From: Allofournierella massiliensis
GTDB taxonomy: Bacteria > Bacillota > Clostridia > Oscillospirales > Ruminococcaceae
Length of the DNA: 64,000 nucleotides
Direction: 5' to 3'
Assembly (NCBI RefSeq): GCF_004345265.1
Contig: NZ_SLUM01000007.1
Coordinates: 1 to 64,000 of the forward strand
Shown here: positions 30,003 through 54,745 of the stretch, in pieces
How positions within the stretch are numbered: the stretch's first letter is position 1
Layout of the letters: the number at the start of each line of letters is the position of its first letter
The notes under the pieces: generated by a model
The model's database searches: none
Told to the model about the DNA's origin: nothing
The model's input: the letters and a program-made list of their open reading frames with translations, nothing else
Made by a program: the position numbers and the translations under genes

Positions 30003-30143
30003 ATTATAATACTCACTTGTATTGCAGGGTGGATGATGCAGAAAAGCATGCCGGTTTCGGTCGCTTTTCTTGCTCAGAATGGTTCTATTATATCATGCCG
30101 GCAGTTGCAGCGCCAGGCGAAGTAAAACGAAGAATAAAACCTG

Positions 30144-30172
30144 TTGCACGGTATGACATATTTCGCTACTAT
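30144..30172 (+). promoter_or_regulatory. Promoter of the Spo0A-like gene
   Basis: TTGCAC (30144-30149), 17-base spacer, TACTAT (30167-30172). It rules out the upstream start codons at 30144-30153 and supports the GTG at 30261. Confidence 0.55.
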
Positions 30173-30260
30173 TATATTAGGCAATGATACGCCCAAGCGG
30201 CCAAAGGCACTGCACAGTACCGCATTGGGCAGGAAAAAGATAAATGGTGGGAAGTTTTAC

Positions 30261-31049
30261 GTGGAAAAAGGCAATCGAGAACAGGTGCGGGAGGCAGTGA
30301 AAAACATCGTGTTGGTTTATGCCGACCCCATTATGCTGCAAACCCTGAACTGCCTGCTGAATATGAACGGTTATCAGGTTGTGAATTCCTTTCAGACCGG
30401 GCGCAGTGCCCTGCGCTTTTTGAAAAGTGGCCCCCAGGTGGACCTTGTTCTGCTGGGTTGCTATCTGCAGGATATGGACACCGTGCGCTTTCTGCGGCAG
30501 ATGGAGCAGGAATGTACCGACCAGCGCCTGCGCGTGATCCTGACCGGCCCGGCCCGCTACATCGAGCTGGTGGAACAGGGTCACTTGTCAAACTGTGTGG
30601 ATTATTATATGATAGAGCCATACGATCCGGACGATCTGCTGTCTGCGCTGGCGATGTTTTCACCGGCGCGCCGTTTGCATCAGGTCACACCGATGGATAA
30701 AATCATTCACCGGCAGCTGCGCGCGCTGGGTGTTTCCGATACGATGGAAGGATATTGGTACCTGGGTGGCTGCCTGCAGGAGTGGCTGCGACTGATCGGC
30801 TGCGGGCAGGTGCCCCAGATGAAAAGCGTACTGCCGGATGTGGCACGCTATCATGGTGTGGCGGTAAAAGCGGTGGAAAGCGGGATTCATCGGGTGATCC
30901 TGCAGCTGAAAAAAGAGGGGAAGATCCCTGCTCCCTATCAAAAAATGAAGCCGTTTCTTGGATGGCTGGCAGATCGTGTCTGGGCGGAATCCTTGCAGGA
31001 AGGTTTGAACGACGGTTATGAACAAGAGCCTGGAACAACAACTGTATGA
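30261..31049 (+). CDS. Spo0A-like transcription factor with degenerate receiver domain
   Basis: The 262 residues. N-terminal receiver fold (about 15-130: NIVLVYADPIMLQTLNCLL; PQVDLVLLGCYLQDMD; LRVILTGPARYIEL; YYMIEPYDPDDL). The phospho-acceptor Asp is replaced by Gly (residue 66, in L-L-G), the conserved Lys by Glu (119, in M-I-E-P-Y), and only one of the two acidic metal ligands (Asp22) remains; Thr95 is kept. The C-terminal domain (about 150-240) matches Spo0A_C: HRQLRALGVSDTMEGYWYL, then KSVLPDVARYHGVAVKAVES and GIHRVILQL, the Spo0A HTH. The GTG at 30261 follows GGTGGGAAG. It overlaps the kinase gene by 32 bases. Phosphorylation-independent control is inferred. Confidence 0.85.
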   Translation: MEKGNREQVREAVKNIVLVYADPIMLQTLNCLLNMNGYQVVNSFQTGRSALRFLKSGPQVDLVLLGCYLQDMDTVRFLRQMEQECTDQRLRVILTGPARYIELVEQGHLSNCVDYYMIEPYDPDDLLSALAMFSPARRLHQVTPMDKIIHRQLRALGVSDTMEGYWYLGGCLQEWLRLIGCGQVPQMKSVLPDVARYHGVAVKAVESGIHRVILQLKKEGKIPAPYQKMKPFLGWLADRVWAESLQEGLNDGYEQEPGTTTV

Positions 31050-31899
31050 AGAAAAGCAGAGGGGAGCGCTGTGCTCCGGCCTCTCTCACGAAATTTATCA
31101 GGCATTGTCTGCAATCCGGGCTTCCAGCGGGCTTTTGCGGCAGGCCATGGACAAGGAGTCGCCCCAGGTCTGCGGTCAGCTGGGCTGGGTGTTTGAAAAC
31201 ATTGATCAAAGTACCTTGCGGCTTAGCCGTGTGGCGGAAAACCTGCAGGACCTTTTGCAGGCGGAGCGGGGTACGCTGGTGCCGCGCATGGAGTCTCTGG
31301 ACCTGAAAAGTCAGTACGGGGAAGCGATGGCGCTGCTGGCCAATGGCGCTAAGCTTTATGGTGTCTCTCTGGAATGGGAATGCGGCCTGGAAAAGCCGCT
31401 CTTTCTTCCGGCAGACAGCGACTGGGCCGATAAGATCCTGTTGCATCTGGTGACCAATGCGGTGCTGTGCAGCGAACGGGGTCAGGTGGTGAAGGTGTCG
31501 CTTCAGCCGGGGGAAACATCGCTGGTCCTCACGGTGGAAGATCAGGGCCCGGGCCTGCCCGACTGGGTGAAGGAGCATCTGTTCGAGGCCTTTGTGGGGC
31601 AGTATGATCCCATGGGGGAAGGCGCGGCTGCCGGTGCGGGGCTGGGCCTTTATCTGGCGCATATGTATGCAGAAGCAATGGGCTGGACGCTGGAGCTGAA
31701 CAGCTCGCAGCGGGGAACAAAAGCCTGTGTTTTGATCCCGTTTGCCCAGGCAGAGACGCTGACCGGCGCAGCTGCTGAACCGGTGCTGCGAAGCGACGGG
31801 CGCGGCTGGCAGAAGTCTGTGCAGCGAAGCCGCGTTCTGGCGGAGCTGGGTGTATGGCAGGCCCGCAAGATCACGGATGAGGAACAGGAAAGCAGATAA
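31018..31899 (+). CDS. Cytosolic histidine kinase without sensor domain
   Basis: The 293 residues begin almost directly with the dimerisation/phosphotransfer domain: His24 in LSHEIYQALSAIRASSGLL (H-box H-E, but without the usual Pro). The ATPase domain has N-box HLVTNAVLCSERG, G1 VEDQGPGLPDW and G2 GAGLGLYLAHMYAEAMGW. No transmembrane helix, PAS or GAF domain precedes it. A C-terminal tail of about 50 residues (from AQAETLTGAA) is unrecognised. It overlaps the Spo0A-like gene, whose receiver lacks the acceptor Asp, so its partner must be another protein or the pair works without phosphotransfer. Confidence 0.88.
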   Translation: MNKSLEQQLYEEKQRGALCSGLSHEIYQALSAIRASSGLLRQAMDKESPQVCGQLGWVFENIDQSTLRLSRVAENLQDLLQAERGTLVPRMESLDLKSQYGEAMALLANGAKLYGVSLEWECGLEKPLFLPADSDWADKILLHLVTNAVLCSERGQVVKVSLQPGETSLVLTVEDQGPGLPDWVKEHLFEAFVGQYDPMGEGAAAGAGLGLYLAHMYAEAMGWTLELNSSQRGTKACVLIPFAQAETLTGAAAEPVLRSDGRGWQKSVQRSRVLAELGVWQARKITDEEQESR

Positions 31900-31908
31900 A
31901 AGTGTTAC

Positions 31909-31942
31909 GCCGGGGAAGGTTTTCCCCGGCATTATTTTTTGT
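31909..31942 (+). terminator. Terminator of the Spo0A-like/kinase pair
   Basis: Stem GCCGGGGAA / TTCCCCGGC followed by ATTATTTTTTG. Confidence 0.85.
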
Positions 31943-32015
31943 TTATTGTTTACAAGAAATATGTTTTATTGTAAAATAGGAACAAATATAATATGGATCA
32001 GGCGGTGTATTGGTT

Positions 32016-32726
32016 TTGGATACAAAATACAAGCGTATTTTATTGAAGGTCAGCGGGGAGGCGCTGGCGGGCAGCAAGGGCACCGGGTTCGATGAACCCA
32101 CCATGGAGACCATCTGCCGCGGCATCAAGCAGGCATATGATCTGGGCGTACAGATCGGCCTGGTTGTGGGCGGTGGTAACTTCTGGCGCGGCCGTTCCAG
32201 CGGCAACATGGAGCGCACCTGCGCCGATAAGATCGGCATGCTCGCAACCGTGATGAATTGCCTTGCAGTGGCGGATCAGCTCCGGCAGCTGGGTGTTCCC
32301 GCGCAGGTCCAGACCTCGATCGTCATGCCTCAGGTGGCTTCTGTGTTCACCCGTGACAGCGCGGTGGAGAGCATGGAGGCCGGCAACGTGGTTCTGTTCG
32401 GCGGCGGCACCGGCAACCCGCTCTTCTCCACGGATACTGCCAGTGCGCTGCGTGCCATTGAAACGGGCTGTGACGTGATGTTCAAGGCCACCATGGTGGA
32501 CGGCGTGTACGACAAGGACCCGAAAAAATATGCGGATGCCGTGAAGTACGACCAGCTTACCTTCACTGAGGTGCTGGAAAAGAACCTGGCCGTAATGGAC
32601 GGTACCGCGGCCACCCTCTGCCGGGAGAACAAGCTCCCGATTCTGGTGTTCGACCTGAAGGACCCGGACAATATCGCAAGAGCGGTGCGCGGCGAAACCA
32701 TCGGCACCCTGGTTGTGGAGGAGTAA
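32016..32726 (+). CDS. pyrH: UMP kinase
   Basis: Hexameric amino-acid-kinase-fold enzyme converting UMP to UDP. Of 236 residues: KRILLKVSGEALAG (ATP/UMP loop), GLVVGGGNFWRG, LFGGGTGNPLFSTDTAS, KATMVDGVYDKDP. The TTG at 32016 is favoured because GGCGGTG ends about eight bases upstream; a TTG at 32010 is also in frame but too close. First gene of the conserved pyrH-frr-uppS-cdsA-dxr-rseP-ispG-polC order. Confidence 0.95.
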   Translation: MDTKYKRILLKVSGEALAGSKGTGFDEPTMETICRGIKQAYDLGVQIGLVVGGGNFWRGRSSGNMERTCADKIGMLATVMNCLAVADQLRQLGVPAQVQTSIVMPQVASVFTRDSAVESMEAGNVVLFGGGTGNPLFSTDTASALRAIETGCDVMFKATMVDGVYDKDPKKYADAVKYDQLTFTEVLEKNLAVMDGTAATLCRENKLPILVFDLKDPDNIARAVRGETIGTLVVEE

Positions 32727-52183: not shown

Positions 52184-54745
52184 GTGCTGAAGATCAACAA
52201 TCGAAAGGCCCTGCATCGCCTGGCGGACAAGAGCTTCCGGGCAAACCGGGGCCGCAATCTGATTGCCATTCTGGCGATCATGCTCACCACCGTTCTATTC
52301 ACCAGTGTGTTTTCCATCGGCGGCAATCTGATCGCTTCGTTCCAGTACAGTACCATGCTTCAGTCCGGCGGCAGCGCCCACGGTACCTTCAAGGATCTTA
52401 CCCAGGAACAGTTCGACCGGCTTAAGCAGGCGGCCCCGGCGGGAACCATTCTGGACCGGAACATCATCTGTGCCTATGAGGTGGAAAATCCGGAGTTTTT
52501 AAAGCGTCATCTGGAGCTGTGGTATCAGCAGCCGGATGCCTATGAGCGCCGGTTCTGCCAGCTGACCGGCGGCCGCGCGCCTCAGGCAGCAGATGAAATT
52601 GCCATGGACGAGCGCAGTCTGGAGCTGCTGGGAATCACCCCGGAGGAGGGGCAGACCATCACGCTGCAGCTGAAGATGGGCTACGATCAGCCGGTGATCG
52701 AGCGCCAGTTCACACTGGTGGGCTGGTTCGGATACAGTGACATCATGAACACGGGCTTCGGAATTGTGAGTGAGGCCTATCTCACGGAGCATGCCGATGA
52801 ACTGGCCGAGGCAAGCGAGCAGATCGGCAGTCAGGTGGGGCTCATCCAGTGTGATGTGACCTTTTCCAATGGTATTAACATCAGCGGCAAGTTGCGAGCC
52901 ATGGCCGAAAAGGCGGGCCTTGCCGAAGAGGTGGAATGGAACGAGAACTGGGCCTATGTGGGCGCCGGGATCGCTGACTGGACCAGCATCGGTGCGGTTG
53001 CGGGGCTTCTTCTGCTGATCATGCTCACCGGGTATCTGATCATTTATAACATCTTTCAGATTTCCGTCATGCAGGACATCCGCTACTATGGCCTGCTGAA
53101 AACCATCGGGACCACCGCAAAACAGATCCGGCGGATTCTGCGCCGTCAGGCGCTTGTGATGTGCGGGTTTGGCATCCCCGTGGGGCTGGTACTGGGCTTT
53201 TTGCTGGGCACGGCATTCACACCGCTCATTTTGCAGATGACCAACACGGTGGACGAGGTCAAGTTGGCCCTGAACCCGGCGGTCTTTCTGGGGGCTGCGG
53301 CCTTTTCGGTGATCACCGTGCTGCTGAGCATGCGCAAGCCTGCCCGGCTTGCCGCAAAGGTTTCCCCGGTGGAGGCTGCCCGCTATACCGAAGGAAACGG
53401 GAAAACGGCGAAAAAGGCAAAGCGTTCTACCAGCGGGGGAAAGCTCTGGCGGATGGCCCTGTCCAATGTGGGGCGAAACAAGCGCCGCGCCGTGTTGGTC
53501 ATTCTATCCATGAGTCTTTCGCTGGTGCTCATGAACAGTGTGTTCACGCTGACAGGCAGCTTTGACATGGACAAATATCTGGCCCGTTTTATCAAAACGG
53601 ATTTTGTTGTGGCCAACGCCCGCTATTGGGGAATCGACTCCTTCCGGGCGCTGGACGGCGAAGACGCGGTGAGTGACACATTGATCGCCAATGTGCAGGC
53701 GCAAGAGGGCTTTGTACAGGGCGGTGCGATCTGGTGCGACATCTATTCCTGGGCGGAGGAGTATCAGTGGCCGGAGGATACCCTCTGGGATGCAGAAGGA
53801 AAACCCTGCCGGAATGACGGGAGAAACCGGCCGCAGGCAGTGGACGATGCGAAAAATCCCTTCACGGTGATCTACGGTGCGGATGATTTCATTCTGGACA
53901 ACCTGCAGATAATGGAAGGGGAGCGCGACCCGGAAACGATCCGGCAGAAGCTCTCCACCGGCGAATACATTCTGTTTGCTGGCCAGGTGAACGACGAGGG
54001 CAAACTGGAGCCGGACCAGCGCCACAAAGTGGGTGACGTGGTCACTCTGTACGATGCAGACGGCGCACGGCATACCTTCACCATTCTTTCGGTGATCAAC
54101 CCCGCCTATTACTGCGAGACGGCGCAGGCCAGCTTTTCCGAATTTGTCTATTACACCACAGCGGATGTGTATGCGGGAATGTGCAACACCGCCAACAAGA
54201 TGAACTATGCCTTTGCGGTGGAGCCGGAATCGGTGGACGCCATGGAGCAATACCTGAACCTCTACACCACGCAGATTGACCCGCTGATGGATTACCGTTC
54301 CCGGGACGGGTACATTCAGGAATACTCTGGAATACGGTTCCTGTTCATGGCGGTGGGCGGCTCGCTCTCGCTGGTGATCGGGCTGATCGGTGTGTTGAAT
54401 TTTATTAACTCTATCCTCACGGGCATTGTGACCCGCAGGCGGGAATTTGCCATGCTGGAGGCCATCGGTATGACCAGGCGACAGCTTCAGACGATGGTTG
54501 CACTGGAGGGCAGCTGTTATGCCCTGTTCACGATCCTTTGCAGTCTGGCCGTGGGGGTCGGAGTCTCACTGCTGTGCGTAAAGCCCCTGGTGGACGGCCT
54601 GTTCTTCACCAGCTATCGGTTTGTGATCTGGCCGCTTTTAGCTGCGATTCCTGTGCTGGTGCTGCTGGGAATCGCGGTTCCGCGGCTGGCCCTGCACTTC
54701 GGCGCCGGGCAGCCGGTGGTGGAGCGGATGCGACAGGCGGAATGA
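52184..54745 (+). CDS. FtsX-type ABC transporter permease (large)
   Basis: The 853 residues: an N-terminal transmembrane helix (NLIAILAIMLTTVLFTSVFS), a first extracytoplasmic domain, FtsX core 1 (GAVAGLLLLIMLTGYLIIYN; LLKTIGTTAKQIRRIL), a second N-terminal-like helix (LVILSMSLSLVLMNSVF), a large second extracellular domain (residues 470-710) and FtsX core 2 (LSLVIGLIGVLNFINSIL; MLEAIGMTRRQLQTM). This two-FtsX layout is that of MacB-like/peptide-antibiotic permeases of Clostridia. The start is the GTG at 52184. Controlled by the upstream two-component pair; a role in antimicrobial-peptide or cell-envelope stress is likely but not proven. Confidence 0.9.
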   Translation: MLKINNRKALHRLADKSFRANRGRNLIAILAIMLTTVLFTSVFSIGGNLIASFQYSTMLQSGGSAHGTFKDLTQEQFDRLKQAAPAGTILDRNIICAYEVENPEFLKRHLELWYQQPDAYERRFCQLTGGRAPQAADEIAMDERSLELLGITPEEGQTITLQLKMGYDQPVIERQFTLVGWFGYSDIMNTGFGIVSEAYLTEHADELAEASEQIGSQVGLIQCDVTFSNGINISGKLRAMAEKAGLAEEVEWNENWAYVGAGIADWTSIGAVAGLLLLIMLTGYLIIYNIFQISVMQDIRYYGLLKTIGTTAKQIRRILRRQALVMCGFGIPVGLVLGFLLGTAFTPLILQMTNTVDEVKLALNPAVFLGAAAFSVITVLLSMRKPARLAAKVSPVEAARYTEGNGKTAKKAKRSTSGGKLWRMALSNVGRNKRRAVLVILSMSLSLVLMNSVFTLTGSFDMDKYLARFIKTDFVVANARYWGIDSFRALDGEDAVSDTLIANVQAQEGFVQGGAIWCDIYSWAEEYQWPEDTLWDAEGKPCRNDGRNRPQAVDDAKNPFTVIYGADDFILDNLQIMEGERDPETIRQKLSTGEYILFAGQVNDEGKLEPDQRHKVGDVVTLYDADGARHTFTILSVINPAYYCETAQASFSEFVYYTTADVYAGMCNTANKMNYAFAVEPESVDAMEQYLNLYTTQIDPLMDYRSRDGYIQEYSGIRFLFMAVGGSLSLVIGLIGVLNFINSILTGIVTRRREFAMLEAIGMTRRQLQTMVALEGSCYALFTILCSLAVGVGVSLLCVKPLVDGLFFTSYRFVIWPLLAAIPVLVLLGIAVPRLALHFGAGQPVVERMRQAE

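Follow-up and report, generated by a model that had tools for sequence, protein, structure and literature searches.

The 64,000-nucleotide window analysed here (positions 1 to 64,000 of contig NZ_SLUM01000007.1 of Allofournierella massiliensis) contains two overlapping plus-strand genes, one for a predicted Spo0A-type regulator whose receiver domain has lost its phosphorylation site, and one for a histidine-kinase-like protein without a recognisable sensor. The pair lies on contig C7 of a 3.73 Mb genome. The regulator gene (30261–31049, GTG start, 262 residues) encodes a pseudo-receiver (residues ~13–137; 30297–30671) followed by a Spo0A_C-type DNA-binding domain (residues ~141–250; 30681–31010). 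The kinase-like gene (31018–31899, ATG start, 293 residues) encodes HisKA-like helices carrying His24, followed by an ATPase domain in which the N, G1 and G2 boxes are present. Gene calls place 32 bases (31018–31049) in both genes, in line with the overlap described in a first-pass annotation of this DNA. Gemmiger sp. An87, An50 and An194 are the nearest relatives that have a name; their regulators are 99, 95 and 94% identical to that of the window, and they are given as pure-culture isolates from chicken caecum (PMC6069880).

The receiver is recognised by Pfam (Response_reg, 35.1 bits against a cut-off of 30.2), and a model of the regulator, itself of modest quality (pLDDT 66, pTM 0.46), has a receiver-like shape, with Z up to 14.6 over residues 13–135. 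Alignment to solved receivers puts Gly66 in the place of the acceptor Asp and Glu119 in that of the Lys. Both acidic ligands are replaced (Tyr20, Ala21), Asp22 sits one position later and Thr95 is kept, leaving four of the five key residues replaced and the window regulator without the acidic pair, Asp and Lys of a phosphorylatable receiver. The first-pass annotation had called this receiver dead; it was right about Gly and Glu and understated the loss in naming only one acidic ligand. Because the acceptor residue is missing, phosphotransfer within the window pair is, judged from its residues, excluded in the usual form. Gly at the acceptor site is common to all six pairs found in the window's genus, all of them without a complete acidic pair or Lys, which rules out a private mutation or sequencing error.

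For the DNA-binding domain, the window regulator alone matches Spo0A_C at 17.5 to 19.6 bits, under the Pfam cut-off of 25; at E up to 1, the family is found in 24 of 25 related C-termini, the best at 2.8e-13. A profile of these 25 C-termini compared with all PDB sequences returned 1fc3 (9.8e-7) and 1lq1 (5.3e-6) first, both Spo0A structures, with the next match at 0.15. Similarly, hhalign against 22 Spo0A domains of the family gave 96.9%, and 98.6% for six relatives from genera g31 and g70. By sequence, the C-terminal domain is of the Spo0A_C type, as first annotated, and with such a domain at its C-terminus the window regulator falls within the Spo0A membership as defined by that domain. A domain of another type, a possibility that the first pass had itself raised, is ruled out at the level of sequence by the family matches, hhalign and the PDB profile search. 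Structure searches with the modest whole-regulator model gave no Spo0A_C structure among the matches listed, which were filled by receiver structures. The Spo0A segment VERAIRHA reads VESGIHRV in the window, and VESG, VDSG, VDTS or close variants in relatives. Since this segment lies in a helix that we take to contact bases in Spo0A, the regulator likely recognises a DNA target sequence different from that of Spo0A.

The kinase-like protein has a clear ATPase domain (HATPase_c, 56.7 bits against a cut-off of 26.4) and a HisKA match of 21.8 bits, under the cut-off of 26.9. It retains His24, Asn147, a DQGPG box and GAGLGL, and Pfam finds no sensor domain in it at E up to 1, so the earlier description of a sensorless kinase with all four motifs holds. 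A pseudo-histidine kinase lacks the His or ATP-binding residues, which the window kinase has; a canonical two-component system combines the kinase His with the regulator Asp, and the window has the His and no Asp.

At least 41 regulator–kinase pairs of this kind occur in 13 genera of one family. They come from a profile screen of 347 family genomes, from regions upstream of pyrH and from a further set of loci. In the profile screen 176 genomes had a match at E 1e-6 and only the best loci were opened; the lower matches include ordinary Spo0A, not sorted singly, so that 41 is a lower bound. Two of the pairs counted, G081a and G081b (the genus of G081b being unclear), share a bin in which pyrH was matched three times. 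Among 61 related genomes, 36 had some match at E 0.001, many to the receiver alone, and clear orthologues were found in G001, G002, G005 and G006, then in G026 and G004. In two search sets a kinase match lies beside every regulator match (28/28 and 14/14). The pair stands directly before pyrH, with a gap of less than 400 bases, in 33 of the 41 cases, as read from printed gaps and, for nine loci where the motif did not match, from coordinates. Other genes separate it from pyrH in G026 (1.0 kb) and G087 (2.3 kb); it is apart from pyrH in G004, G199, G263, G313 and G354, and in G005 it lies at a contig end. Looking outwards from pyrH, we took 40 upstream regions from 124 genomes with this gene, mostly of the top PyrH ranks and a few from lower ones; 14 held the pair, one was cut by the contig end (L124) and 25 were without it. 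G003, which is 84% complete, gave no clear pair and no pyrH match. A search across the order, in which 293 of 295 genomes gave a match, could not discriminate, because the profile also catches ordinary Spo0A; only G000 and G110 stood out, and 10 of the 12 loci fetched carried the VERAIRHA segment. Restriction of the pair to one family is therefore not established.

Across the 41 pairs, one or both ends of the phosphotransfer reaction are often missing. The acceptor site holds Asp in 27 regulators, Gly in seven, Ser in six and Asn in one, and the kinase His is present in 11 partners and absent from 30; the N-box Asn is found in 38 (lost in G018, G159 and G081b). For scale, the His is reported missing in 0.9% of HisKA domains and the Asp in 2.0% of receivers (PMC12632262). 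Asp and His occur together in only six pairs (G075, G163, G336, G292, G239 and G170), so that one or both ends are missing and the usual phosphotransfer is excluded in 35 of 41. All six belong to genera g70, g19 and g31, which hold nine pairs; the other three (G036, G233 and G286) are without His. In five of the six (G336, G170, G239, G292 and G075) the kinases are longer, with 422–478 residues of open frame and the motif LSHEFKTPL, LAHEMRAPV or LAHQLQGHL; the N-terminal part of these longer kinases in g31 and g70 showed no Pfam domain in the three scanned. The receivers of G336, G170, G239 and G075, though not that of G292, have the two acids, Asp and Lys. In the other ten genera (32 pairs, including G081b), Asp is present in 18 pairs, His in five and both in none. 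No receiver there has the two acids with Asp and Lys (G076 has the two acids and Asn for Asp), and the ATP-binding residues persist: the N-box Asn in 29, the G1 Asp in 29 and the Gly of G2 in all 32. Of the 30 kinases without the His, 23 still have the acidic residue that directly follows its position (kinase column 25), which suggests that this residue may have another role.

On an unrooted tree built from 538 of 1093 columns, with the trait columns left out, the fewest changes needed are five for Asp and five for His. Midpoint rooting does not place the complete genera at the base; we infer the direction from complete to incomplete pair because receivers and kinases more widely have a complete site. 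The first-pass annotation had proposed a regulator divorced from phosphorylation yet tied to a kinase; the dead receiver and the tie to a kinase are supported. Its own reservation, that relatives might carry the Asp and the change be private, does not hold: 27 of 41 do carry the Asp, but all six pairs of the genus have lost it, and it changed at least five times on the tree.

These counts also bear on the idea that modification continues to switch the regulator, either at different residues (Ser/Thr, Lys) or weakly at a kept Asp, as is given for other pseudo-receivers (PMC12632262). The 18 pairs with Asp outside g19, g31 and g70 and the six of 41 with Ser at the site would fit it. The six pairs of the window's genus speak against it, as they have Gly there and neither a complete acidic pair nor Lys; we regard it as very improbable.

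The history of the kinase His is informative in the clade of 11 pairs that includes the window (g1, g21 and g82). Here His is found in four near-identical pairs only, its position being taken by Arg in G005 and G004, Ile in g21 and Gly in g82. His was either lost about four times around the window group or regained once, so the kept His24 is not good evidence of preserved catalysis. The same pattern weakens an alternative in which the window-group kinase is an active autokinase for another response regulator, leaving its neighbour to act alone as a constitutive DNA-binding protein. His24 and the N, G1 and G2 boxes are complete in the four closest genomes, and the genome has two further receiver-like matches besides the window, both of which favour this reading; the replacements just listed would nevertheless have to reflect about four separate losses, and the kinase stands beside the regulator in all 41 cases, which is not required of a free kinase. 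We consider this alternative unlikely.

Selection on the window genes was estimated against An50 and An194. The ratio of non-synonymous to synonymous substitution rates (dN/dS) was 0.057 and 0.054 for the receiver, 0.041 and 0.071 for the C-terminal part, and 0.148 and 0.156 for the kinase (0.182 between An50 and An194), with 0.030 and 0.020 for pyrH. The window genes are under purifying selection, and the low dN/dS rules out a pseudogene in the window group. Together with the conservation of the pair, this means that it is neither a pseudogene nor a private mutation. Upstream of the regulator gene, a candidate control region (30109–30190) is nearly identical in the window, An50 and An194, with 80 of 82 columns the same; in the flanking stretches 59 of 118 columns agree on the upstream side and 55 of 71 on the downstream side.

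Two further accounts are set against these data. In one, the regulator is constitutively active and set by its amount only, the kinase-like partner being a relic on its way out. The faster evolution of the kinase and the three losses of the N-box Asn agree with it, but a dN/dS of 0.15–0.18 means that the kinase is still selected in the window group, and both the presence of a kinase frame beside every regulator match of the two search sets and the N-box Asn in 38 of 41 partners argue otherwise, making this account distinctly unlikely. In the other, the genes are decaying and without function. The lost catalytic residues would fit, but the reading frames are open in 41 pairs, dN/dS is low for the window group and the upstream block is conserved, and we give this account hardly any weight.

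Phosphotransfer has been lost, yet the two genes stay together with open frames and an ATP pocket, and control by contact is the simplest account. The pair is allied to the complete Spo0A_C-type pairs of the same family. It is probably a former two-component system, since remodelled so as to function with no His-to-Asp phosphotransfer, the kinase-like protein controlling the regulator by binding. The regulator would then act as a transcription factor on inferred target genes, its Spo0A_C-type domain binding DNA and its pseudo-receiver serving for docking and dimer formation. The product of the overlapping gene, the kinase-like protein, would dock on the pseudo-receiver through the old kinase–receiver contact, and this binding, perhaps set by the ATP/ADP state or by amount, would hold or free the regulator, which may also control its own promoter through the block at 30109–30190. 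Allosteric activation by sensor kinases besides phosphorylation is known for other regulators, and a 2025 review treats allosteric use by pseudo-receivers as conceivable and not proven (PMC12632262).

Several points weigh against control by binding. Adjacency of the genes does not prove contact between their products. Asp22 might partly stand in for a lost acidic ligand, the window kinase, with His and ATP boxes, may still autophosphorylate, and some of the 18 pairs with a kept Asp could be phosphorylated by other donors. Also, the kinase evolves faster than the regulator, and compared with G005 dN/dS is higher (receiver 0.40, C-terminal part 0.22, kinase 0.32), values that are less certain at a dS of 0.7–1.5.

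The pair can be set beside several known systems. Like Spo0A (TIGR02875; Response_reg and Spo0A_C, PF08769), the window regulator has a receiver followed by a Spo0A_C-type domain; unlike Spo0A, its receiver is dead and it carries VESG/VDSG instead of VERAIRHA, and unlike the genome's own spo0A, which lies elsewhere, its gene overlaps that of its own kinase-like protein. With the aspartate-less or pseudo-receiver regulators (PMC12632262, PMC4395418) it shares the absence of Asp, Lys and acidic pair, and its model is receiver-like. The pseudo-receivers described in the 2025 review are nearly all orphans (PMC12632262), whereas the window type is paired with a kinase-like gene throughout our set, and the site of this kinase-like protein is disappearing as well. 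CmrRST of Clostridioides difficile, also a gut clostridium, likewise has an Asp-less regulator encoded with a kinase; CmrT is described as a member of the OmpR family with a phosphomimetic Glu and a sister regulator, CmrR, that has the Asp (PMC12548384), whereas the window pair has Gly, a regulator of the Spo0A_C type and no second regulator alongside. DivL and other pseudo-histidine kinases also use the kinase fold beyond phosphotransfer (PMC4211667, PMC12632262), and in Caulobacter the fold is reported to be reused as a sensor of a regulator (PMC4211667); a DivL-type domain senses the phosphorylation state of a regulator, whereas the partner regulator in the window is without the usual site.

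Among the papers found in PMC under Creative Commons (CC) licences, no title or abstract shown described a Spo0A-type pseudo-receiver with a kinase, and the 2025 review calls the switching of pseudo-receivers a mystery (PMC12632262). Here a pseudo-receiver occurs with a kinase-like partner in ten genera, with no complete pair among 32 and complete relatives for comparison. Because the partner is present and complete relatives exist, kinase–regulator signalling without phosphate is directly testable in a Spo0A-type regulator, and the pair offers a natural test of how such systems can work without phosphorylation.

The first-pass annotation had also seen in the pair a new variant of the sporulation switch, possibly in a lineage thought not to sporulate. 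The genome has a separate spo0A (L001, frame 52714–53478 of G000:C6; Spo0A_C match 153.9 bits), standing behind a gene read by eye as spoIVB; a variant of the switch itself is not supported, and that the pair is linked to sporulation stays unproven. The window regulator reaches 33.1 bits against TIGR02875, far from the equivalog cut-off of 200. Sporulation genes are not absent from the lineage: spoIIR and spoIVA are present in 24 of 24 genomes tested, including the window genome's own copies.

The canonical spo0A that the first pass had suggested looking for in this genome is thus present, although it is altered at the phosphorylation site. We compared 61 Spo0A loci (one gene twice, as L076 and L170), and seven have Glu for Asp: L001, L038, L039 and L041 from the window group, L085 and L089 from g83, and L109 from G159. 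In the window group (G000, G001, G002 and G006) this Glu is combined with Arg for Lys, and three Spo0A loci of the same genus (L037, L040 and L042) keep Asp and Lys. A change from Asp to Glu alone is described as often insufficient for constitutive activity, with Spo0A among the examples (PMC4395418). It is a tentative and somewhat doubtful possibility that the whole Spo0A-type network of this gut lineage is free of phosphorylation, the pair working by binding alone and the true Spo0A having Glu and Arg at its site. If so, protein contact and protein amounts would decide when the spore programme is entered, and the family would preserve intermediates on the way from a complete two-component system to one free of phosphate.

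Other Spo0A_C proteins occur in these genomes. L043 (G006:C15) and L044 (G001:C45) are stand-alone Spo0A_C proteins without a receiver; that of L043 is 40–49% identical to proteins on gut phage records (best 8 of 13 matching records), and a truncated phage spo0A has already been described (PMC10294663). L002 (G000:C3:136028), L045, L046 and L051 are short proteins from open frames of 113–169 residues with a partial Spo0A_C match, L002 lying near a gene that resembles dnaJ by eye.

Within the conserved block upstream of the regulator, CGAAG occurs twice, 10 bases apart (30118–30132), and may be a binding site. G005 has a comparable tandem in its upstream region, G004 has none. The window has three copies of the pattern CGAA-N6-CGAA where 2.0 are expected, no more than chance would give, and of 25 upstream regions only those of An87, G005 and, at a greater distance, G110 contain it. 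Because the pattern is not rare in the window, the tandem is a lead only. The search for Spo0A boxes suggested by the first-pass annotation came out negative, with four copies of TGTCGAA over the two strands of the window together and none before the regulator gene, so a tandem of 0A boxes was rejected. A scan gave no sigma-70-like site in the conserved block. Further upstream, on the opposite strand, the neighbour is an RNA-methyltransferase-like gene, identified by eye.

Downstream, a hairpin resembling an intrinsic terminator, with a stem of 9 pairs and a T-rich tail (31909–31930, plus strand), lies between the pair and pyrH; the scanned stretch has seven terminator-like sites where 2.0 are expected, and this one has the longest stem. 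A promoter scan places a promoter-like site at 31949–31977, beyond the hairpin, and we therefore rejected cotranscription with pyrH (UMP kinase; 32010–32726, plus strand), the pair's usual neighbour, which we do not consider part of the pair. Among the relatives where other genes intervene before pyrH, that in G026 (L113) includes a transposase-like frame, IS200-like by eye, and those in G087 (L112) are other genes.

A small gene encoding LYENAV, or a close variant, and then W.DVL lies upstream of the regulator in 18 of 40 other pairs by a strict pattern, and in more by eye. It is found in many genera, for example at L112:4087–4536 and in G004 of the window's own genus, and the pattern has no match in the window. 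Among four copies scanned, that of G075 alone passed the Pfam cut-off for DUF6514, a name for which we found nothing in the CC-licensed PMC literature. Finally, L066 (G102), L067 (G148) and L075 (G075:C245) are Spo0A_C-like regulators with Asp and Lys beside longer kinase-like genes; the kinase beside L075 has the phosphoacceptor His, as does, by eye, that beside L066. Such loci hint that ordinary two-component pairs may have a Spo0A-type output more often than has been assumed.
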